A DNA stretch of 64,000 nt from contig REDI01000031.1 of the NCBI GenBank assembly GCA_007693595.1, forward strand, positions 62,001 through 126,000, given 5' to 3'. Below the pieces are notes generated by a model, which was given only the letters and a program-made list of their open reading frames with translations, did not search any database and had not been told where the DNA came from. Positions 16,036-25,438 of this stretch are shown here, one piece after another. Source of the stretch: Deltaproteobacteria bacterium. Lineage in GTDB: Bacteria > Myxococcota_A > UBA796 > GCA-2862545. Both the position numbers and the translations under genes were made by a program. Each line of letters opens with the position of its first letter. Positions within the stretch are counted from its first letter, which is position 1.

Positions 16036-17406
16036 GTGAGCGCTCCTCTCGCCTCTCCCATCCAGGGCATCTCCGATCCCGAAGCGTGGCTTCGCCCTCG
16101 GGCCCTCGTCCGGTTGGCCGTCCCCGCTGCGCTTGGCGCGGTCTTGCACAACGCCTACCGCCCCCTGGATCAGCTCTACGCGTCCTGGCTCGGTCGCGAG
16201 GCGCAGGGGGCTCTCGGGGCCTCGGTCTTCGTGCTCATCGTAGCGTTTGGGATCTGCATGTTGATCGCCGCGGGAGTCGGTCCCCTGGTGGGCCGAGCGA
16301 GCGGAGCCGGCGACGAGGAAGGACGACGGATGTGGATCGGTGCGGGGCTCCTGGGGGCGGGCGGGGTGGCGCTCGGCCTCGCCTTCACCGGCCTCTTTGC
16401 TGCGGAGGGCATCGTCGCCCTCATGGGACTTCAGGGCGAGACGGCCCATCTCGCCGTTGTCTATCTTCGGGTGCTTCTCGTCACCGGCCTCGCCTTGCCC
16501 TTCGGACCGCTGCTCGACGCCTCGTTCTCGGCCATGGGCAACACCGTCCTTCCGCTGGTCCTTCAAGGAGTGGTGGTGGTCCTGAACGCTGTGCTCACGC
16601 CGGTGTTCATGTTCGGGCTTGATCTGGGCATCGCGGGGGCGGCCTTGGGATCGACCCTCGCCCAGCTCCTCGGGGTCACGCTCGGGGTGGCCCTCCTCGC
16701 CCGAGCGGCAGACCTGCGTTGGCGTGATCTGTTCGCCGGTGGCGTCGAGCTTGGTCGGCGAGTCGTCGGCATCGCGAGGATCGGCTCTCCCGTCGCCATG
16801 AGCACCGTGCTCTACGCGGGGGTCTACTGGGCCCTGCTCGCGACGTCGATCACCCCGCTCGGCGATGCGGTGACCGCTGGCCTGGGGATCGGCTTTGGTG
16901 CCCTCGAGGCCTTTGCCTGGCCCCTTTATATGGGATGTTCGGTCGCGGCTGCCTCGCTGGTGGGCCGGTGCTTGGGGGCGGGCCGTACCGATCTGGCGCT
17001 TCGAGCCTTGAGAAGACTCCTCCCCGCCCAGGTCGGGCTCGGGGTCAGCGTGGCGCTGGTGTTCTGGCTCGCGGGCCCTTCGCTGGTCGCCCTGATCGCC
17101 GCCGACGAAGACGTCGCGGCTCAGGCGGCGACCTATGCCTTGATCCTTGCCTGGTCCCAGCCCTTCGTCTCGCTCGAGGCCCTATTTGACGGCACCTTGA
17201 ACGGGGCGGGGGACACGACCGCGAGCTTCTGGACGACCGCGCCCTACAACCTCATCCGCGTCCCTTTGGCCTGGTTCTTGGCGATCGGGCTCGGAATGGG
17301 GGCGCCGGGGGTATGGTGGGCGATCAACAGCACCACGATGGCCAAGGCGGTGAGCAAGGGCCTGGTGGTCTGGCACGGGCGCTGGCGCCGGCTCGACCTG
17401 TCATGA
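16036..17406 (+). CDS. MATE-family multidrug efflux transporter
   Basis: This is a 456-residue protein with about 12 hydrophobic helices in two similar halves. Typical MATE features are 'AVPAALGAVLHNAYRPLDQL' near the start and 'FDGTLNGAGDTTASFWTT' late. It would export cationic drugs or metabolites in exchange for Na+ or H+. The start is a GTG 6 bases after the stop of the S41 protease gene, so it is probably translated by coupling with that gene. Its stop shares the palindrome TCATGA with the stop of the convergent CPBP protease gene, overlapping by 6 bases. Confidence 0.88.
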   Translation: MSAPLASPIQGISDPEAWLRPRALVRLAVPAALGAVLHNAYRPLDQLYASWLGREAQGALGASVFVLIVAFGICMLIAAGVGPLVGRASGAGDEEGRRMWIGAGLLGAGGVALGLAFTGLFAAEGIVALMGLQGETAHLAVVYLRVLLVTGLALPFGPLLDASFSAMGNTVLPLVLQGVVVVLNAVLTPVFMFGLDLGIAGAALGSTLAQLLGVTLGVALLARAADLRWRDLFAGGVELGRRVVGIARIGSPVAMSTVLYAGVYWALLATSITPLGDAVTAGLGIGFGALEAFAWPLYMGCSVAAASLVGRCLGAGRTDLALRALRRLLPAQVGLGVSVALVFWLAGPSLVALIAADEDVAAQAATYALILAWSQPFVSLEALFDGTLNGAGDTTASFWTTAPYNLIRVPLAWFLAIGLGMGAPGVWWAINSTTMAKAVSKGLVVWHGRWRRLDLS

Positions 17407-18405
17407 GCCTCGGGCGAGTCCTTCGGGGAGCTCCGCCCAGGCCTGCTCGGGGGTGGCGAGGGGCTCGCGACGAAGCACGTAGGCCAGCGCGACCAAGACG
17501 ATGGTGACCCCGAGCCCGAGTAGGGCGATCCAGAGCGCGGGCTCGATGTCGTCGAACTCGGTCTGGGAGGCGAGGATGCCCACGGTGGCTGCGAGGCTGT
17601 TGTTCACGAAGTGAGCCAGAATGCATGGCCAGATGGAGCCGCTCGTGAGACGAAGCCAGCCGAGGAAGAAGGCGGTGAGCACCAGGGCCGGGGACTGCAC
17701 CAGGTCGGCGTGAGCCACCACGAAAGCGAGGCTGGTCACGATCAGCGCGATGCTCTGGCCGAAGATGCCGGGCGCGAGGCGCTCCAGGGCGTTCCACAGC
17801 GCGCCGCGAAAGCAGAGCTCTTCGAAGATCGGAGCGCCGATGACGATGGTGATCAGCGTCAGCGTTCGGCTGAAGGGACCTCCGCTGTTCAGCACGCGAT
17901 CGATGGCCTCTAGGGCCCCTTGGTTGGCGAGATCGGGGAACGTCTCGACGATCTGGTGGGCGATCCATCCGGGAAAGAGCCCGACGAACAGGCCGCCGAT
18001 GAGCGCGATCCCGAGCATGGTGAGGGAGGGTCGCCGGAGGGCAAAGCCGTGTTTGGGGCGCCAGCCCACGACGAAGACCGTCACCCCACACGCGAGGGTC
18101 CAGCTCCCGAACCCCACGAAGAAGGAGAGGAAGAGGACCTCGGCAGACAGGGCGGTTTCGAGGCTGGCGGGATCGGACAGGACCTCGGGGCTCTGCAGCA
18201 GTAGGCCGACCGCCGCGGCGGCGCCCCCCAAACAGAGCAAAAAGACGGGAGCCAGGGTGAGCAAGAGGGCGGCGACCGCCAGGGCGCTGAGCCGACTGGA
18301 GATCCAGGGGCGCTCATCGGGCCAATGACCCGTGCCTGGTATCGCCTTGCGCTCCTGTAGGCGCGGCGAGATGGCTGCTTGCCAAGGGGGGAGATCATCG
18401 CTCAT
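17401..18405 (-). CDS. CPBP-family intramembrane glutamic endopeptidase
   Basis: A 334-residue polytopic membrane protein. The CPBP (Abi/Rce1-like) motifs are present: 'EELCFRG' (EExxxR, near residue 194), 'FVVAHA' and 'HFVNNSLAA'. Members cleave or process peptides in the membrane; many process bacteriocins or regulators, but the substrate here is unknown. The start has AGGAG upstream. The gene converges with the MATE gene, overlapping 6 bases. Confidence 0.88.
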   Translation of the reverse strand: MSDDLPPWQAAISPRLQERKAIPGTGHWPDERPWISSRLSALAVAALLLTLAPVFLLCLGGAAAAVGLLLQSPEVLSDPASLETALSAEVLFLSFFVGFGSWTLACGVTVFVVGWRPKHGFALRRPSLTMLGIALIGGLFVGLFPGWIAHQIVETFPDLANQGALEAIDRVLNSGGPFSRTLTLITIVIGAPIFEELCFRGALWNALERLAPGIFGQSIALIVTSLAFVVAHADLVQSPALVLTAFFLGWLRLTSGSIWPCILAHFVNNSLAATVGILASQTEFDDIEPALWIALLGLGVTIVLVALAYVLRREPLATPEQAWAELPEGLARGS

Positions 18406-18495
18406 GGGCTGCTCCTGACGTTCGGAGCCCTCGGCCTATCCGGTTAGTGGGGGCAGGGGCGAGCGTGAGGTCACGTCCGTCCCAGGGAGGTCGGC

Positions 18496-20763
18496 GTGTC
18501 TGCGCTCGTGATCCGTGGTGCTCGGGAACACAACCTGCGTTCCCTCGATCTCGCTCTGCCGCTTCAGGGGCTGGTCGTCGTCACGGGGGTGAGCGGGTCG
18601 GGGAAGTCCTCCTTGGTCTTCGACACGCTCCACGCCGAGGGACGTCGGCGCTATGTCGAGGCCCTTGGCTTGGCCGCCTCGAGCCTGCGCCGACCCGCGG
18701 TCGACCGCATCGAGGGGCTCCCCCCCACCGTGGCGCTCAGGCAGCACGAGCGCGCGCCAGGGCCGCTGGATACCCTGGGGAGCCTCTCGGGGATCGAAGC
18801 GCTCTTGGCCGTGATCTGGGCGCGGGGGGGCGTCCAGCATGATCCCCAGACCGGCGAGGCGATCCGCCCGACTTCGCAAGACGCGATCCTGCGGGAGCTC
18901 CTCGACGCGCCTGAGGGGTCGCGTTTGCATGTCGAGGCGCCGCTGCTGCCCTCCGAGGGCAGCTCCATGGTGGGTCTCCTCGACGAGCTGAGGCGGGCGG
19001 GCTTCTCGAGGGTGCGCATCGATGGGGAGGTCCGACGCCTCGACGAGATCCCCGAGCGTCGAGAGGTCGATCCTCGGGTTCGGGTCGTGGTAGATCGTCT
19101 CAAGGTCGCGCCCGACCGTCGCCCCCGGCTCGCCGAAGCGCTCCGGCTGGCGAGCGCTGCTGGACGCGGGATCCTGGTCGCGCACTTCGACGATCACGAG
19201 CGCGTGTTCGTCGATCGTCCCTTCAGCCTCTCGACGCGTCGCACCTTCCCCGAGCTTCGCCCCGCGCGGTTCTCTTGGCGCGGGGCAGGTCGATGCCGCC
19301 CCTGCGAGGGACGGGGCCAGCTCGATGGGCGGACCTGTCCAGCCTGCGGCGGGGCACGGCTCGACGAGGCCGCACGTCACGTGCTCTTCCGGGGGCACTC
19401 CCTGCCGGGGCTGCAGGCGCTCCCCCTCGCCGAAGCCCTCGCGCGGCTGCAGCCGACCGACTCCGATCCTGCCGTCGAGATCGCGCTGGCTGACGTTCGT
19501 GATCGGCTCGAACGCTTGAGAAAGCTGGGACTCGGCGCGGTCTCGCTCGACCGACGCGCCGCCTTCCTCTCGGTCAGCGAGTGGCAGCGGCTCCGGCTGG
19601 CGCGCACGACCTCTCAGGATCTCTCAGGTGTGCTCTACCTGCTCGACGAGCCGACGGCAGGCCTCCACCCCTCGCTGGTCCCGGCGGTGATCGAGCTGCT
19701 GGTCGAGCTCGTTCAACGGGGCAATGGTGTGATTGCGGTCAGCCATCGCGAGGCTCTGGTGCGCGCCGCCCAGACGGTGCTGGAGCTTGGCCCGGGTGCC
19801 GGCGCGGACGGGGGCGCGGTCCTCCACGCGGGCTCGGTCGAGGAGCTCCGCGCGGGCCAGACTCCGACTGGGCGTTGGCTGGCTGGCGATCTCGGCACCC
19901 CAAGCCCCCCTCCGGTCCAGACTGAGATCGTGGAGGTTGGGCCACTGCCCGCGCTCAGGGACCTGGTCATCGAGCTTCAGCTCGAGGGACTCACCGTGCT
20001 CGAGGGAGCCCCGGGCGCGGGCACGAGCCAGGCGCTGGTCGCCTTGGCGGCGCACGTCGGGGAGCGGGGCGGCGTGGGTGGCCTGGATCGGGTGCTGCGG
20101 GTGGAGCCCGTGCGCATCGGGAGCGCCCGCTCGATGGTGGCGACCTACGTCGGGCTGTGGGATGTCTTGCGCGAGCTCCTCGCAGCCACCACCGAGGCGT
20201 CGATCCGCGGCCTGACCTCCTCGCACTTCTCGCTCGCCACGCCGGGCGGGCGTTGCGAGTCCTGCAAGGGCACCGGCGAGGTCAAGGTCGATCTCGGGCT
20301 CCTGCCACCCGTCTTTCTCTCCTGCGAGATCTGCGAGGGCCAGCGCTTCCAAGAGGAGCTGCTCGACATCACCTGGAAGGGGCGAGACCCAGCTCAGCTC
20401 CTCCAGCTCTCGGCCCTCGAAGCCTACCGTCTGCTCGCTGGGCACCCCCGGCTCGAGCGTACGCTGCGCGCCTTGGTCGACGTAGGCCTTGGGTACGTGC
20501 CGCTGGGTCAGCCCACGCGCGACCTCTCGGGGGGCGAAGGGGCTCGGCTACGTCTGGCGCGGGAGCTGGGCCGCTCGGCCCTGGGGGTGAAAGGCGCGCT
20601 GCTCGTGCTCGATGGGCCCACCGACGGACTCCATCCGGTCGACGCCCGGAGCATGATCCGCTTGCTCCATGAGCTTGGGCGATCGGGGGCCACCGTGGTG
20701 GCGGCGTCTCACGACCCCTTGGTCCTCGCAGCGGCCCACCTTCGTGTTCCAGTCCATGGGTAG
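18496..20763 (+). CDS. UvrA paralogue with one degenerate ATPase site
   Basis: At 755 residues it is about 190 shorter than UvrA. Both ABC halves and both zinc modules are recognisable. Half 1: Walker A 'GVSGSGKSS' (31-39), zinc 'CRPC...CPAC' (near 267-285), signature 'LSVSEWQR' (near 358, normally LSGGEAQR), Walker B 'LLDEPTAGLHP' (near 382). Half 2: Walker A 'GAPGAGTS' (near 505; the Lys is missing), zinc 'CESC...CEIC' (near 588), signature 'LSGGEGARLRLA' (677), Walker B 'VLDGPTDGLHP' (705, catalytic Glu replaced by Gly). UvrA scans DNA for bulky lesions in nucleotide excision repair. This is probably a paralogue with a changed role. The start is a GTG with GGGAGG upstream. Confidence 0.88.
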   Translation: MSALVIRGAREHNLRSLDLALPLQGLVVVTGVSGSGKSSLVFDTLHAEGRRRYVEALGLAASSLRRPAVDRIEGLPPTVALRQHERAPGPLDTLGSLSGIEALLAVIWARGGVQHDPQTGEAIRPTSQDAILRELLDAPEGSRLHVEAPLLPSEGSSMVGLLDELRRAGFSRVRIDGEVRRLDEIPERREVDPRVRVVVDRLKVAPDRRPRLAEALRLASAAGRGILVAHFDDHERVFVDRPFSLSTRRTFPELRPARFSWRGAGRCRPCEGRGQLDGRTCPACGGARLDEAARHVLFRGHSLPGLQALPLAEALARLQPTDSDPAVEIALADVRDRLERLRKLGLGAVSLDRRAAFLSVSEWQRLRLARTTSQDLSGVLYLLDEPTAGLHPSLVPAVIELLVELVQRGNGVIAVSHREALVRAAQTVLELGPGAGADGGAVLHAGSVEELRAGQTPTGRWLAGDLGTPSPPPVQTEIVEVGPLPALRDLVIELQLEGLTVLEGAPGAGTSQALVALAAHVGERGGVGGLDRVLRVEPVRIGSARSMVATYVGLWDVLRELLAATTEASIRGLTSSHFSLATPGGRCESCKGTGEVKVDLGLLPPVFLSCEICEGQRFQEELLDITWKGRDPAQLLQLSALEAYRLLAGHPRLERTLRALVDVGLGYVPLGQPTRDLSGGEGARLRLARELGRSALGVKGALLVLDGPTDGLHPVDARSMIRLLHELGRSGATVVAASHDPLVLAAAHLRVPVHG

Positions 20764-20765
20764 CC

Positions 20766-20774
20766 TGTGGATAA
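20766..20774 (+). promoter_or_regulatory. Consensus DnaA box
   Basis: TGTGGATAA is the exact reverse complement of the DnaA box TTATCCACA. It lies just after the stop of the UvrA paralogue, in a relatively AT-rich stretch. A near-consensus copy is at 20874-20882. Confidence 0.4.
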
Positions 20775-20873
20775 CCTGAGGAAGACCTGGCGACGCTTGA
20801 TGGATAGGTTGTGAAGATATAGTTGAGAAGGCGATTTTTTACAAGATCGAGAAACTTTGTGCTCCCGCTTGCC

Positions 20874-20882
20874 TGTGGACAA
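20874..20882 (+). promoter_or_regulatory. Near-consensus DnaA box
   Basis: TGTGGACAA differs from the DnaA box by one base (TTGTCCACA on the other strand). It has the same orientation as the box at 20766, about 100 bases away, with AT-rich sequence between. This is a possible DnaA binding or titration site. Confidence 0.3.
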
Positions 20883-20976
20883 GAGACACACTACAGGGCG
20901 TGGTTTGGCCGCTCGGCGCGCGTGGGTTTTGAGCGGAGCGCTTCTCTTGGCGGCCCTTCGGTGTGCTGTGGAGCGC

Positions 20977-22365
20977 TCAGAGATGAACGCTCTGGCCAAG
21001 CGCCTGGGCGACGGCCTCCATCATGGCCTCGCCGTGGGTCGGGTGGGCGTGGACGGTGTGGACGAAGAGCTCGGCGGTGGCCTCGGCGCTGCGGGCCATG
21101 ACGAAGTTCGCGATCAGCTCCGTGGCTTCGCTCCCGACGATGTGAGCACCAAGGATCTCGCCGTACTCGGGGTCGATGAGCACCTTGACGAAGCCCTCGG
21201 GCGCGCCCGCCCCTTGCGCTTTGCCGTTGGCTGCGAAGGGAAACTTGCCCACCTTGTAGGATAGTCCCTTTTTCTTGGCGGCCTCCTCGGTGAGACCTAC
21301 GCTGGCGACCTGGGGGATGCAGTAGGTGCACGAAGGCATGTTGTCGTAGTCGACATCGGCGATGCGGTGCCCGGCGATGCGGTCGACGCAGACGTGGGCC
21401 TGGGCGGTGGCGGTGTGAGCCAAGGCCGGGCCCCGATCGTTGAGGTCGCCCAAGGCATAGACGCCAGGGACGGAGGTGCGGTAGCTCGCGTCGACCACCA
21501 CGAAGCCTCGCTCGGTCTTGACCCCGAGCTCCTCGAGGCCGAGATCTTCGGAGTTAGGGGAGATCCCCAGGGCGACGAGCACGCGGTCGGCACGCAGGGT
21601 CTCGCCATTGTCGAGCTCGACGACGGCTTCGTCGCCGTCTGCCTGGGCGGATCGCGCGAGGGTGCCTAGCTCGAAGCGGATCCCGGCCCGACTCAGGTGG
21701 CGCCGTACTTCTTTGCCGATCTCGCGGTCTTCGAGCGGGAGGACCTCGGCTTGGCCCTCGACGACGATGACCTCGGTGCCCATGGCGTTCATGAAGTAGG
21801 CGAACTCGAGCCCGATGGCGCCAGCGCCGAGGATCACTATGCGCTCGGGCTGCTCCTTCGAGACGATCGCCTCGCGGTAGGTCATGACCTTCTCTCCGTC
21901 GACCTCGATGCCAGGGAAGGTGCGGGCCCGCGCGCCGGTGGCGAGCACGATGTGCTTGGCGGTGAGCTCCTGAGCGTCGCCGTCTCGAGGTTGGAGCGTG
22001 ACGTGCCCCTTGCCCGCGAGCCGAGCGGTGCCCTCGAGGTGGTCCACCCCGTACTTCTTGAAGAGGGAGGCGACCCCCTTGTTGAAGCGGCCCGAGACGG
22101 TGCGTGAGCGATCGACGACCCGCCCGAAGTCGACGCTCACGTCGCCTGCGCGGAGGCCGAAGTCGCTCGCGTGGCGCATTTTGTTCGCGAGCTCGGCGGT
22201 CTTGAGGAGGGCCTTGGAGGGGATGCACCCCCAGTTCAGGCAGACTCCGCCGAGGAGTTCTCGCTCGATGCAGGCGGTCTTGAGTCCGAGCTGGGCGCCG
22301 CGGATCGCGGCAGGGTAGCCGGCGGGCCCGGCGCCGATGACGATCAGGTCGTAGGAGGTGGACAC
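20977..22365 (-). CDS. lpdA: Dihydrolipoyl dehydrogenase (E3)
   Basis: A 462-residue flavoprotein that reoxidises lipoamide with NAD+. It has 'VIGAGPAGYPAAIRGAQLG' (FAD), the redox disulphide 'GGVCLNWGCIPSK', 'GAGAIGLEFAYFMN' (NAD) and a C-terminal 'HAHPTHGEAM' with the catalytic His-Glu pair. The start is a GTG at 22365 with GGAGCG upstream; the frame stays open far beyond, but that extension has no family similarity. It is the last gene of the minus-strand block carrying E1alpha, E1beta and E2. Confidence 0.94.
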   Translation of the reverse strand: MSTSYDLIVIGAGPAGYPAAIRGAQLGLKTACIERELLGGVCLNWGCIPSKALLKTAELANKMRHASDFGLRAGDVSVDFGRVVDRSRTVSGRFNKGVASLFKKYGVDHLEGTARLAGKGHVTLQPRDGDAQELTAKHIVLATGARARTFPGIEVDGEKVMTYREAIVSKEQPERIVILGAGAIGLEFAYFMNAMGTEVIVVEGQAEVLPLEDREIGKEVRRHLSRAGIRFELGTLARSAQADGDEAVVELDNGETLRADRVLVALGISPNSEDLGLEELGVKTERGFVVVDASYRTSVPGVYALGDLNDRGPALAHTATAQAHVCVDRIAGHRIADVDYDNMPSCTYCIPQVASVGLTEEAAKKKGLSYKVGKFPFAANGKAQGAGAPEGFVKVLIDPEYGEILGAHIVGSEATELIANFVMARSAEATAELFVHTVHAHPTHGEAMMEAVAQALGQSVHL

Positions 22366-22424
22366 GGGAACGCTCCGGGAGAAGGGGAGTCGATGCCGTA
22401 GCGCCCCACAGCGAGGCGGCAAGC

Positions 22425-22913
22425 TCACTCGCCGCTGTCGGCGATCCCCGTGACGGACTCGCAGCGTAGGATCAGTCCCCCTCGAAGCCCTTGGGGTACT
22501 CGATGTGGATCGGGCCTCCCGTCTGGAAAGGCCCGGCTCGGCCCTGTGCAGTCGGGGTGGGCATACTCGATGGCGCGGCGCCGGCTCAGGTCTGGGGAGG
22601 AGTGGCCCCCGGCGACCTGCCGGCACGCGCGCTCCCAGGAGAGCCCCTCGATGCCCCTTGGATCGACACACTGTGACCAGGCACCCTGCCCGGGTCCGGT
22701 CTCGGCCAGCTCGCGGCGCCCCTGGACCGAGAGCTCTGGTCGCCAGCCAGCGGGAAGATCGGCGGGATCTCCAAGGTCGACCAGCCCGCCGTCGTCCATC
22801 CACTGCTCGGCTTCGTCCTGCCAGTGAGCGGGGGTGGGCGGCGGGACAAGCCCGTTCGGGACGGATCCGCGCACACACGCGAGAAGAAAGAGCGGTATCC
22901 AACGAGAAATCAT
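22425..22913 (-). CDS. Small lipoprotein between E2 and E3 genes
   Basis: This 162-residue protein has the lipobox 'PLFLLACV' (C13), so it should be lipidated. The rest is Pro/Gly/Asp-rich with three later Cys ('SQCVDP', 'RACRQ', 'PDCTG') and another near the end, and I recognise no family. A strong AGGAGG lies 6 bases before the ATG, so the gene is real. It lies 140 bases after the E2 gene and 59 before lpdA, all on the minus strand. Nothing in the sequence ties it functionally to pyruvate dehydrogenase. Confidence 0.72.
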   Translation of the reverse strand: MISRWIPLFLLACVRGSVPNGLVPPPTPAHWQDEAEQWMDDGGLVDLGDPADLPAGWRPELSVQGRRELAETGPGQGAWSQCVDPRGIEGLSWERACRQVAGGHSSPDLSRRRAIEYAHPDCTGPSRAFPDGRPDPHRVPQGLRGGLILRCESVTGIADSGE

Positions 22914-23053
22914 GAAGACCTCCTGGCTGAGAGGCCCCGATCTAGGATCTTCGGGCGAGCCTCAGCCACTACCCGGACTTCATTTCCGGAGGGCTGTTGT
23001 CGTGCTCTAATCGAGATCTTCGTCCGCGCTGAGGCTCGAGGCGGTCCGCCTTG

Positions 23054-24424
23054 CTAGAGGAGCAAGAGGGCGGGGCTCTCGACATAGCGCCGCAAGACCT
23101 GGAGGAACTCGGCGCCGGTCGCGCCGTCGATGACGCGATGGTCGCAGGTCATCGTGACCTTCATGCGCCAGGCGGGCTCGAGCTCGCCCTGGTCGTTCAC
23201 GACGGGCACGCGCTCTAGGGCACCGACGGCGAGGATCGCGCTGGCGGGCGGGTTGATGATCGCGGTGAACTCTTCGATGCCGTACATGCCAAGGTTGCTA
23301 ATCGTAAATGTGTTGCCCTGGTACTGTTCAGGCTTCAGCTTGCCTTCTCGAGCGAGGCCAGCGAGCTCGCGTACCTGGTCGCCGATCTGGGCGAGCCCGA
23401 GCTGATCGACGTTGCGAAGGACCGGGGTGATCAGCCCATCGGGCAGGGCCACGGCGACTCCGATGTCGACGGAGCCGTGGCGCGTGATCGCCTTGTCGCC
23501 CCAGCTCGCGTTGACCTGGGGAGACTCGGCCAGGGCGCGTGCCACCGCCTTGATCAGCATGTCGTTGTAGCTGACCTTCGCGTCGGGGGCCTGGGTCTTG
23601 AGGCTCGCGCGCAGCGCGACCATGCCGCCCATGTCGAAGGACACCGTAAGGAAGAAGGTGGGGATGTCTCGGTGGCTCTCGAGGAGGCGCTTGGCGATGG
23701 TCTTGCGCATGGGGGAGTTGCGTACCTGCTCATCGGCGCGGCTGGTGCCGGGGGCCGCCGGGCGCGCGGGGGCCTCGAGGACGTCAGCCTTGACGATGCG
23801 GCCGCCGGGGCCGGTGCCCTGGAGCTTGTTGAGATCGATGCCCTTGTCGGCGGCGATCTTGCGGGCCAGCGGGCTCGCGGCGACGCGCTCGGCGGTGGTG
23901 GCCGCGCCGATGTCTCCGGGGGGATCCATGAAGGCGGCGGAGAGGGCGCGCCCTTGCCACTGTCGGGTGATCGAGACCTTCTCGGCTCGGCGTGGGGGCG
24001 GGGCCTTCTTGCCCTCATCCCCGGCCTTGGGCTCTCTTGGCTCTTCGGCCTCTTCAGTCTCTTCATCCCTTGCTTCTTGGGAGGGAGAGGAGGGCTCTTC
24101 GTCGTCGCTCGCGTCCCCACCGCTGGGCGACCCTCGGTCCTTTTGCGCTTCGAACGCTTTGACCAGCTCGCTGATGTCTTCGTCGGCGGACTCGCCGACG
24201 ATCGCGATCGGGTAGCCAGCAGGGACTTCGTCGCCCTCTTCGATCAGGTGCTTGATCATCACCCCCGCGTCGAAGATCTCGGCGTCCATGTTGGCCTTGT
24301 CGGTGCCGACTTCGGCGATCACGGTCTGGGGCTCGAAGGACTCGCCCTCGGCCACCCGCCACTCGACGAGGGTGCCGAGCTCCATGGTGGGCGAGACGGC
24401 GGGCATCTCATAGAACTGGGCCAC
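23054..24424 (-). CDS. pdhC: Pyruvate dehydrogenase E2, dihydrolipoamide acetyltransferase
   Basis: A 456-residue E2. It has a lipoyl domain with the lipoylated Lys in 'VGTDKANMD' (K43), an acidic and Pro-rich linker (about 95-150), a peripheral-subunit-binding domain ('ASPLARKIAADKGIDL'), and the catalytic domain ending with 'CDHRVIDGATGAEF' (His and Asp of HxxxDG). It takes acetyl groups from E1 to CoA and forms the complex core. The start is a GTG with AGGAG upstream. It follows E1beta on the same strand, with a gap of about 33 bases. The single lipoyl domain and linker length fit the usual bacterial type. Confidence 0.94.
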   Translation of the reverse strand: MAQFYEMPAVSPTMELGTLVEWRVAEGESFEPQTVIAEVGTDKANMDAEIFDAGVMIKHLIEEGDEVPAGYPIAIVGESADEDISELVKAFEAQKDRGSPSGGDASDDEEPSSPSQEARDEETEEAEEPREPKAGDEGKKAPPPRRAEKVSITRQWQGRALSAAFMDPPGDIGAATTAERVAASPLARKIAADKGIDLNKLQGTGPGGRIVKADVLEAPARPAAPGTSRADEQVRNSPMRKTIAKRLLESHRDIPTFFLTVSFDMGGMVALRASLKTQAPDAKVSYNDMLIKAVARALAESPQVNASWGDKAITRHGSVDIGVAVALPDGLITPVLRNVDQLGLAQIGDQVRELAGLAREGKLKPEQYQGNTFTISNLGMYGIEEFTAIINPPASAILAVGALERVPVVNDQGELEPAWRMKVTMTCDHRVIDGATGAEFLQVLRRYVESPALLLL

Positions 24425-24457
24425 GATGTGCTCCTGGGTTGCGAGGGCGAGAGGGGC

Positions 24458-25438
24458 TCACCGATTGCAGACGGCTCGTGCCGCTTGGATGATCCGGGCG
24501 ACGCTCGGTATCACCAGCTTCTCGAGGTTGGTGGCGTAGGGTTGGTTGAGGTCGAGGTTGGTCACGCGCAAGATCGGGGCGTCGAGGGCGTCGAAGCAGG
24601 CCTCTTGTACGCGGGCGGAGATCTCGGCGGCGATGCCGGCGAAGGGGAAGCCCTCTTGCACGATCACCATGCGGTGCGTGCGGGCGACGGCGTCGTACAG
24701 AGCCTGCTCATCGAGGGGGCGGATGGTGCGAAGGTCGAGCACTTGGGCGCTGATCCCGTACTCTTTCTGGAGCACATCGGCGGCCTCGAGGCAGCTGAAG
24801 ATCTGCTTGTTCCACGACACCAGGGTCAGATCGGAGCCCTCGCGCCGCGTGACCGCCTCGCCGAGCGGGATCAGGGTCTCGTCGTCGGGCACCTCGCCCT
24901 TGACGCCGTAGGCGAGCTCGGACTCCATGAAGATCACGGGGTCGGGGTCGCGGATCGCGCTCTTGAGCAGGCCGTAAGCGTCGGCAGGGGTGGAGGTGGA
25001 GACGACCTTGAGCCCTGGGAAGTGTGCGAAGATCGACTCGAGGGCCTGGCTGTGCTGGCTGCCGAGGTTCTCGGCCGCGCCGTTTGGACCGCGGATCACC
25101 ATGGGCACGGTGTACTGCCCGGCGGTCATCTGCACGATCTTGGCGGCGTTGTTGATGATCTGGTCGTAGGCCACCAGGCTGAAGTTCCAGGTCATCACCT
25201 CGATGATCGGGCGCAGACCGGCCATGGCGGCGCCCACGCCCAGGCCCACGAAGCCGTTCTCGCTGATGGGGGTGTCGATGATCCGACGCTCGCCGAACTC
25301 TTCGAGCATGCCTTGACTGACCTTGTAGGCGCCGTCGTAGTTCGCGACCTCTTCACCCATGAGGAAGACGCGATCGTCGCGCCGCATCTCTTCGACCATC
25401 GCCCTGCGCAGGGCCTCGCGTAGCTGAAGCTGCGCCAT
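24458..25438 (-). CDS. pdhB: Pyruvate dehydrogenase E1 component, beta subunit
   Basis: A 326-residue E1beta with 'REALRRAMVEEM', 'GEEVANYDGAYKV', 'TPISENGFVGLGVGAA', 'RGPNGAAENLGSQHSQ' and 'LDLRTIRPLD'. All are typical of the subunit, which closes the thiamine-diphosphate site together with E1alpha. The enzyme decarboxylates pyruvate and passes the acetyl group to E2 lipoate. Its ATG follows the E1alpha stop codon after one base, with GGAGG upstream, so translation should be coupled. Confidence 0.94.
   Translation of the reverse strand: MAQLQLREALRRAMVEEMRRDDRVFLMGEEVANYDGAYKVSQGMLEEFGERRIIDTPISENGFVGLGVGAAMAGLRPIIEVMTWNFSLVAYDQIINNAAKIVQMTAGQYTVPMVIRGPNGAAENLGSQHSQALESIFAHFPGLKVVSTSTPADAYGLLKSAIRDPDPVIFMESELAYGVKGEVPDDETLIPLGEAVTRREGSDLTLVSWNKQIFSCLEAADVLQKEYGISAQVLDLRTIRPLDEQALYDAVARTHRMVIVQEGFPFAGIAAEISARVQEACFDALDAPILRVTNLDLNQPYATNLEKLVIPSVARIIQAARAVCNR

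Follow-up and report, generated by a model that had tools for sequence, protein, structure and literature searches.

A UvrA paralogue with a degenerate distal and a retained proximal ATPase site

Why UvrA has two ATPase sites, and which step is driven by each of them, is still argued from point mutants. Can a UvrA have dispensed with one of the two? The question is raised by a gene at positions 18496 to 20763 of a 64,000-nucleotide stretch of DNA (the window; contig REDI01000031.1 of assembly GCA_007693595.1) from a deltaproteobacterium of the GTDB phylum Myxococcota_A. Its product matches UvrA over its whole length and scores 565.9 bits against TIGR00630, which is under the curated UvrA equivalog cut-off of 729.8. 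The nearest solved structures are canonical UvrAs (3pih and others). In UvrA the proximal site is composed of ATP-binding domain I and signature II, and the distal site of ATP-binding domain II and signature I (PMC6486640). The original prediction, made from the letters of the window alone, had claimed that three of the six motifs are degraded, that these three belong to the same composite site and that the other site is intact. Reading the translation confirmed the open reading frame (ORF), its coordinates and all six motifs. Moreover, the published domain pairing places Walker A2, Walker B2 and signature 1, and with them all three losses, in the distal site. The features are as follows, given in window coordinates and in amino acids (aa); the degenerate clade to which some counts refer is defined below.

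18496 to 20763, forward strand: one-site UvrA paralogue, ORF of 755 aa, GTG start, GGGAGG about 6 bases upstream
18586 to 18612, forward strand: Walker A1 GVSGSGKSS, aa 31-39, proximal site, intact (K37 kept in 27/27)
18874 to 19185, forward strand: UvrB-binding (UvrA_inter) domain, aa 127-230, PF17760 at 4.7e-21, retained
19294 to 19347, forward strand: zinc module 2, CRPC..CPAC, aa 267-284, with a 14-aa step between the Cys pairs
19567 to 19581, forward strand: signature 1 LSVSE, aa 358-362, distal site, degraded (normally LSGGE)
19636 to 19665, forward strand: Walker B1 YLLDEPTAGL, aa 381-390 (E385; LYLLDEPT), proximal site, intact
20005 to 20031, forward strand: Walker A2 GAPGAGTSQ, aa 504-512, distal site, T510 in place of Lys
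20107 to 20109, forward strand: position of the distal Q-loop Gln, here P538 (Gln in 19/21 canonical UvrAs and 3/28 of the degenerate clade)
20254 to 20334, forward strand: zinc module 3, CESC..CEIC, aa 587-613, intact, in signature domain II
20524 to 20538, forward strand: signature 2 LSGGE, aa 677-681, proximal site, intact
20602 to 20631, forward strand: Walker B2 region LLVLDGPT, aa 703-712, distal site, G707 in place of the catalytic Glu

Also retained are Q83, the proximal Q-loop Gln, as well as R353 (distal Arg) and Q672 (proximal Gln), which lie five residues before signature 1 and signature 2, respectively. For the window protein by itself, the chance that three losses among six elements all fall in the distal site is 1 in 20. 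As far as sequence comparison can tell, the site-specific pattern is made far stronger by the orthologues than by the window alone.

We surveyed the order of the window organism, represented by 63 genomes in our collection; its class is small, with 71 genomes. Most of the 63 species of the order possess a second UvrA copy. In the window's own family (f1), orthologues with approximately 43-50% identity and open frames are found in 20 of 21 genomes, the window included, three of them cut by contig ends. Related short proteins occur in two further families of the order (f4 and f5). The standalone copy was not detected in family f6 or in some genomes of the sister family (f2). A search of the named genome collection recovered only canonical UvrAs of Acidimicrobiia and one weak match, and a search of the viral collection recovered one near-full-length relative and one fragment. 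Phylogenetic trees were inferred by a quick search after removal of the motif columns, with SH-aLRT values as support. The window protein groups with 17 family orthologues (support 100), and the family orthologues join the short proteins of f4 and f5 (support 98 in one tree and 91 in another). We refer to this group as the degenerate clade; it contains 28 proteins including the window protein. The standalone lineage as a whole branches among single UvrAs of the ordinary type from the phylum and is separate from the canonical tandem-fused UvrA described below. Branches are long in the degenerate clade and short in f2.

Across the degenerate clade the two sites have fared very differently. Losses at the proximal site amount to 0/27 for the Walker A Lys, 1/28 for the Walker B Glu, 0/28 for the His and 2/28 for the signature, compared to 2/28, 26/28, 12/28 and 27/28 for the same elements of the distal site. 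On the tree the Walker B2 residue has changed 13 times, the Walker B1 residue once. Changes of signature 1 are frequently mild (LSAGE, LSTGE, LSSGE). The 28 proteins thus lend strong support to the proposal that one composite site was lost coherently and the other retained. The expectation that the three elements vary together does not hold for them as a set, however. The Walker A2 Lys is kept in 26 of the 28 proteins, including all 17 other orthologues of f1, and is lost only in the window protein and in one protein of f4. Orthologues with an intact Walker A2, which the original prediction had named as evidence that would speak against it, do therefore exist, but Walker B2 and signature 1 are degraded almost throughout. 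Judged from these sequences, the predicted loss of distal hydrolysis is shared by the family, whereas it is almost exclusively the window protein that lacks the binding Lys.

The standalone copy of f2 keeps all catalytic residues. With one exception its insertion domain is shortened to about 92-106 aa, and its losses are limited to signature 1 (6/16), the distal His (5/15) and the distal Q-loop Gln (13/16). Together, the sequences suggest a stepwise route from a two-site to a one-site ABC machine, in which the Q-loop would have been lost first, then signature and His, the insertion domain, the Glu and, last, the Lys. Two f4 relatives (L064 and L037) additionally lack the Cys pairs of zinc module 2, and in L037 the Walker B1 Glu is replaced by Asp; in these two proteins erosion may have reached the proximal side as well.

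The domains of the window protein have been affected unequally as well. The Cys pairs of zinc module 2 are separated by 14 aa, compared to 123-131 in canonical UvrA, which means that the DNA-binding insertion domain is deleted. The claim that both zinc modules remain applies to modules 2 and 3. There is one more in UvrA, module 1 (E. coli C120/H123/C253/C256), and the window protein has lost it. The ligands of module 1 are also absent in the canonical UvrAs of Acidimicrobiia (L039-L049), where HDPQTGE replaces CPxC/H. Within the UvrB-binding domain, R172, D200, R201 and R211, the equivalents of E. coli R176, D205, R206 and R216, are invariant (100% conserved). Most members of the degenerate clade carry Arg at aa 181 (19036-19038) and aa 217 (19144-19146), which correspond to E. 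coli D185 and E222, and these gains could have altered the partner surface.

The genome of the window organism (assembly of 4.92 Mb, 98% complete) does contain a canonical uvrA elsewhere, as the original prediction had proposed to check. It is a single ORF of 1909 aa with two complete UvrA units, all motifs and four intact ATPase sites (L087; contig C54, 88000-99000), and thus a gene distinct from that of the window protein, which is a single unit. One uvrB and one full-length mfd are present in addition, so that repair need not rely on the window gene. Throughout the order there are further tandem UvrA ORFs, about 1640-2110 aa in length. A second kind of fused UvrA, a class II-like tandem of 1533-1674 aa, is found in four genomes of the order (L066, L067, L068 and L070); it has kept its insertion domains and lacks UvrB-binding domains in both halves.

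With an intact tandem UvrA at hand, the window gene might be a slowly decaying relic, an old single UvrA that became redundant after the tandem took over and erodes without a retained function. The long branches of the degenerate clade compared to the short ones of f2, the stepwise losses at the distal site and in the insertion domain, the lack of a detectable standalone copy in f6 and some f2 genomes, and the loss of zinc module 1 in the window are all in line with this. Conservation points the other way. There are 161 positions with at least 90% conservation in the family, and the window protein keeps 154 of them (95.7%), which is within the family range of 90-99% and not what is seen in a pseudogene; T510 is among the seven lost. 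Mean identity in the family and in canonical UvrA, respectively, is 0.46 and 0.39 for the UvrB-binding domain and 0.59 and 0.63 for signature domain II, both of which stay constrained, and 0.33 and 0.55 for the ATP-binding domain II segment; the two samples differ in breadth, and the values are valid for comparison between domains only. Finally, the gene is an open frame in nearly all family genomes, the proximal site and zinc module 3 are near invariant, and decay would not spare one composite site so selectively. A relic is therefore an unlikely explanation. A sequencing error at the motif positions also appears unlikely, since the frame is open, the conserved positions are mostly kept and orthologues share two of the three losses.

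The reading we tentatively favour, while giving it somewhat less than an even chance, is that the window protein is a UvrA paralogue with ATP hydrolysis confined to the proximal site, which acts as an auxiliary, damage-blind recruiter of UvrB or Mfd and is derived from the single UvrA of the phylum. The ancestor would have been an ordinary single-copy UvrA. In the order, the intact tandem-fused UvrA would serve nucleotide excision repair (NER) and relieve the old copy, which in the window's family would then have lost the insertion domain, and with it damage sensing, as well as distal-site hydrolysis. The proximal ATPase, signature domain II with its zinc hairpin and the UvrB/Mfd-binding domain would have been retained. 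Such a protein could bind DNA where other factors mark it, either the tandem UvrA or Mfd at a stalled RNA polymerase, and its engagement of UvrB or Mfd would be driven by the ATPase cycle of the proximal site. The distal site probably holds ATP without hydrolysing it in most relatives, whereas that of the window protein probably binds ATP weakly or not at all.

We infer this function, including dimer state, DNA binding, partner and role, from published mutants of E. coli. The distal-hydrolysis mutant E858A remains bound to DNA and recruits UvrB whether or not damage is present; proximal hydrolysis is a requirement for the recruitment of UvrB (PMC5007444). UvrA without residues 290-400 is impaired more in global than in transcription-coupled repair, and the UvrB-binding domain is required for both alike (PMC3025350). 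Most family members combine changes of the E858 and the 290-400 type, a combination that predicts a damage-blind protein engaging UvrB or Mfd. That the paralogue is a naturally evolved damage-blind UvrA for the UvrB/Mfd-recruitment step only, for example in transcription-coupled repair, while the tandem UvrA searches for damage, is possible but rather improbable.

Several observations weigh against the recruiter reading. No copy was found in the sole genus-mate, whose assembly is fragmented, and no repair-related gene is found among the neighbours of the paralogue. Among the relatives, 9/27 have lost the Gln of the proximal Q-loop. The distal Glu loss has essentially one origin, which leaves an independent-pairs test of correlated loss underpowered, so that correlated loss cannot be shown statistically. 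That contact with UvrB persists, as had been proposed, is plausible in view of the retained domain and its invariant residues, but E222 on the UvrB face is replaced by Arg in 22/28 proteins, a charge reversal that could weaken docking of UvrB or Mfd. The corresponding claim for DNA stands only in part: among the contacting arginines the R712 equivalent is invariant and that of R724 is kept in the window protein, but R722 and R730 are replaced by Ser and His, and the deletion of the insertion domain had gone unnoticed. The E. coli mutants speak on this side, too. E858A is NER-defective, and the distal-binding mutant K646A blocks UvrB loading and lowers DNA binding, perhaps via weaker dimers (PMC5007444); by this precedent DNA binding and loading should suffer in the window protein, which has lost the distal Lys. 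Moreover, the proximal-site mutant K37A also shifts UvrA towards transcription-coupled repair (PMC3025350), and a purely Mfd-driven role would therefore not call for conservation of the proximal site.

Alternatively, the paralogue might be a regulatory subunit of complexes that also contain the tandem UvrA, in which it would contribute distal sites without turnover and tune its partner. UvrA acts as a dimer, and the state of its distal site is tied to dimer stability and DNA release (PMC5007444). The paralogue and the tandem also coexist in the window genome and in most of the family genomes searched. However, the tandem already holds two units per chain and the identity between the two proteins is about 40%, and we regard a regulatory subunit as distinctly unlikely.

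The surroundings of the gene (window 17401-25438) consist of a divergent gene for a CPBP-type protease on one side and convergent pyruvate dehydrogenase genes (lipoamide dehydrogenase, E2 and E1 beta) on the other; genes for a MATE pump and an S41 protease are also among the neighbours. Many genomes of the family share portions of this arrangement. The lipoamide dehydrogenase and E2 genes and the MATE pump are shared with two f2 genomes (G045 and G051), which supports orthology with their copies. The codon-position G+C of the gene (0.80/0.51/0.83) is similar to that of adjacent genes. Inverted or direct repeats were looked for in its upstream region and none were found. PADLOC matches (best mad3, 130.7 bits) were judged to reflect a generic ABC ATPase and not to be evidence of a defence system. 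An AlphaFold2 prediction of the window protein, run with six canonical UvrAs, had a pLDDT of 45.7 and a pTM of 0.29, and no fold comparison was drawn from it. A non-NER ATPase acting on DNA structure, or a drug-DNA clearance protein of the DrrC/Ecm16 type, is very unlikely: the paralogue does accompany a canonical UvrA and UvrA relatives have been reused for drug-DNA removal (PMC10192343), but its architecture is opposite to that of Ecm16/DrrC and no biosynthetic cluster is seen adjoining it.

Under the recruiter reading, which we continue to favour, the one-site UvrA looks like a natural split of the two jobs of UvrA. A lineage without one site and the insertion domain, and with the other site and the UvrB-binding domain, amounts to a natural separation-of-function experiment. 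It would permit a direct test of whether the proximal-site ATPase alone supports engagement of UvrB or Mfd.

A literature search restricted to open-licence papers turned up neither a UvrA whose distal site is degenerate nor one of such an architecture. One-site degeneracy is well known in ABC transporters (CFTR, TAP, TM287/288). As in these transporters, the Walker B Glu and the opposite signature are degenerate in the clade (26/28 and 27/28), Walker A is mostly kept and the other site is canonical; the window protein, in contrast, is an ABC protein of DNA repair with both halves in one chain and without a membrane domain. With class I UvrAs (E. coli, Geobacillus, Thermotoga) it shares domain order, proximal site, zinc modules 2 and 3, UvrB-binding domain and signature domain II. 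It differs from them by the lack of the insertion domain and of zinc module 1, by the degenerate distal site and by a score below the TIGR00630 cut-off. Class II UvrA (Deinococcus UvrA2, PDB 2vf7) and Ecm16/DrrC are likewise shortened UvrA paralogues, but they lack the UvrB-binding domain and have the insertion domain, whereas the window protein is the reverse. Moreover, Ecm16 has four nucleotide-binding sites per dimer, all of them ADP-bound in the crystal (PMC10192343). Finally, the E. coli laboratory mutants E858A, K646A and deletion 290-400 each mirror one of the natural changes, which here are combined and fixed in a lineage.
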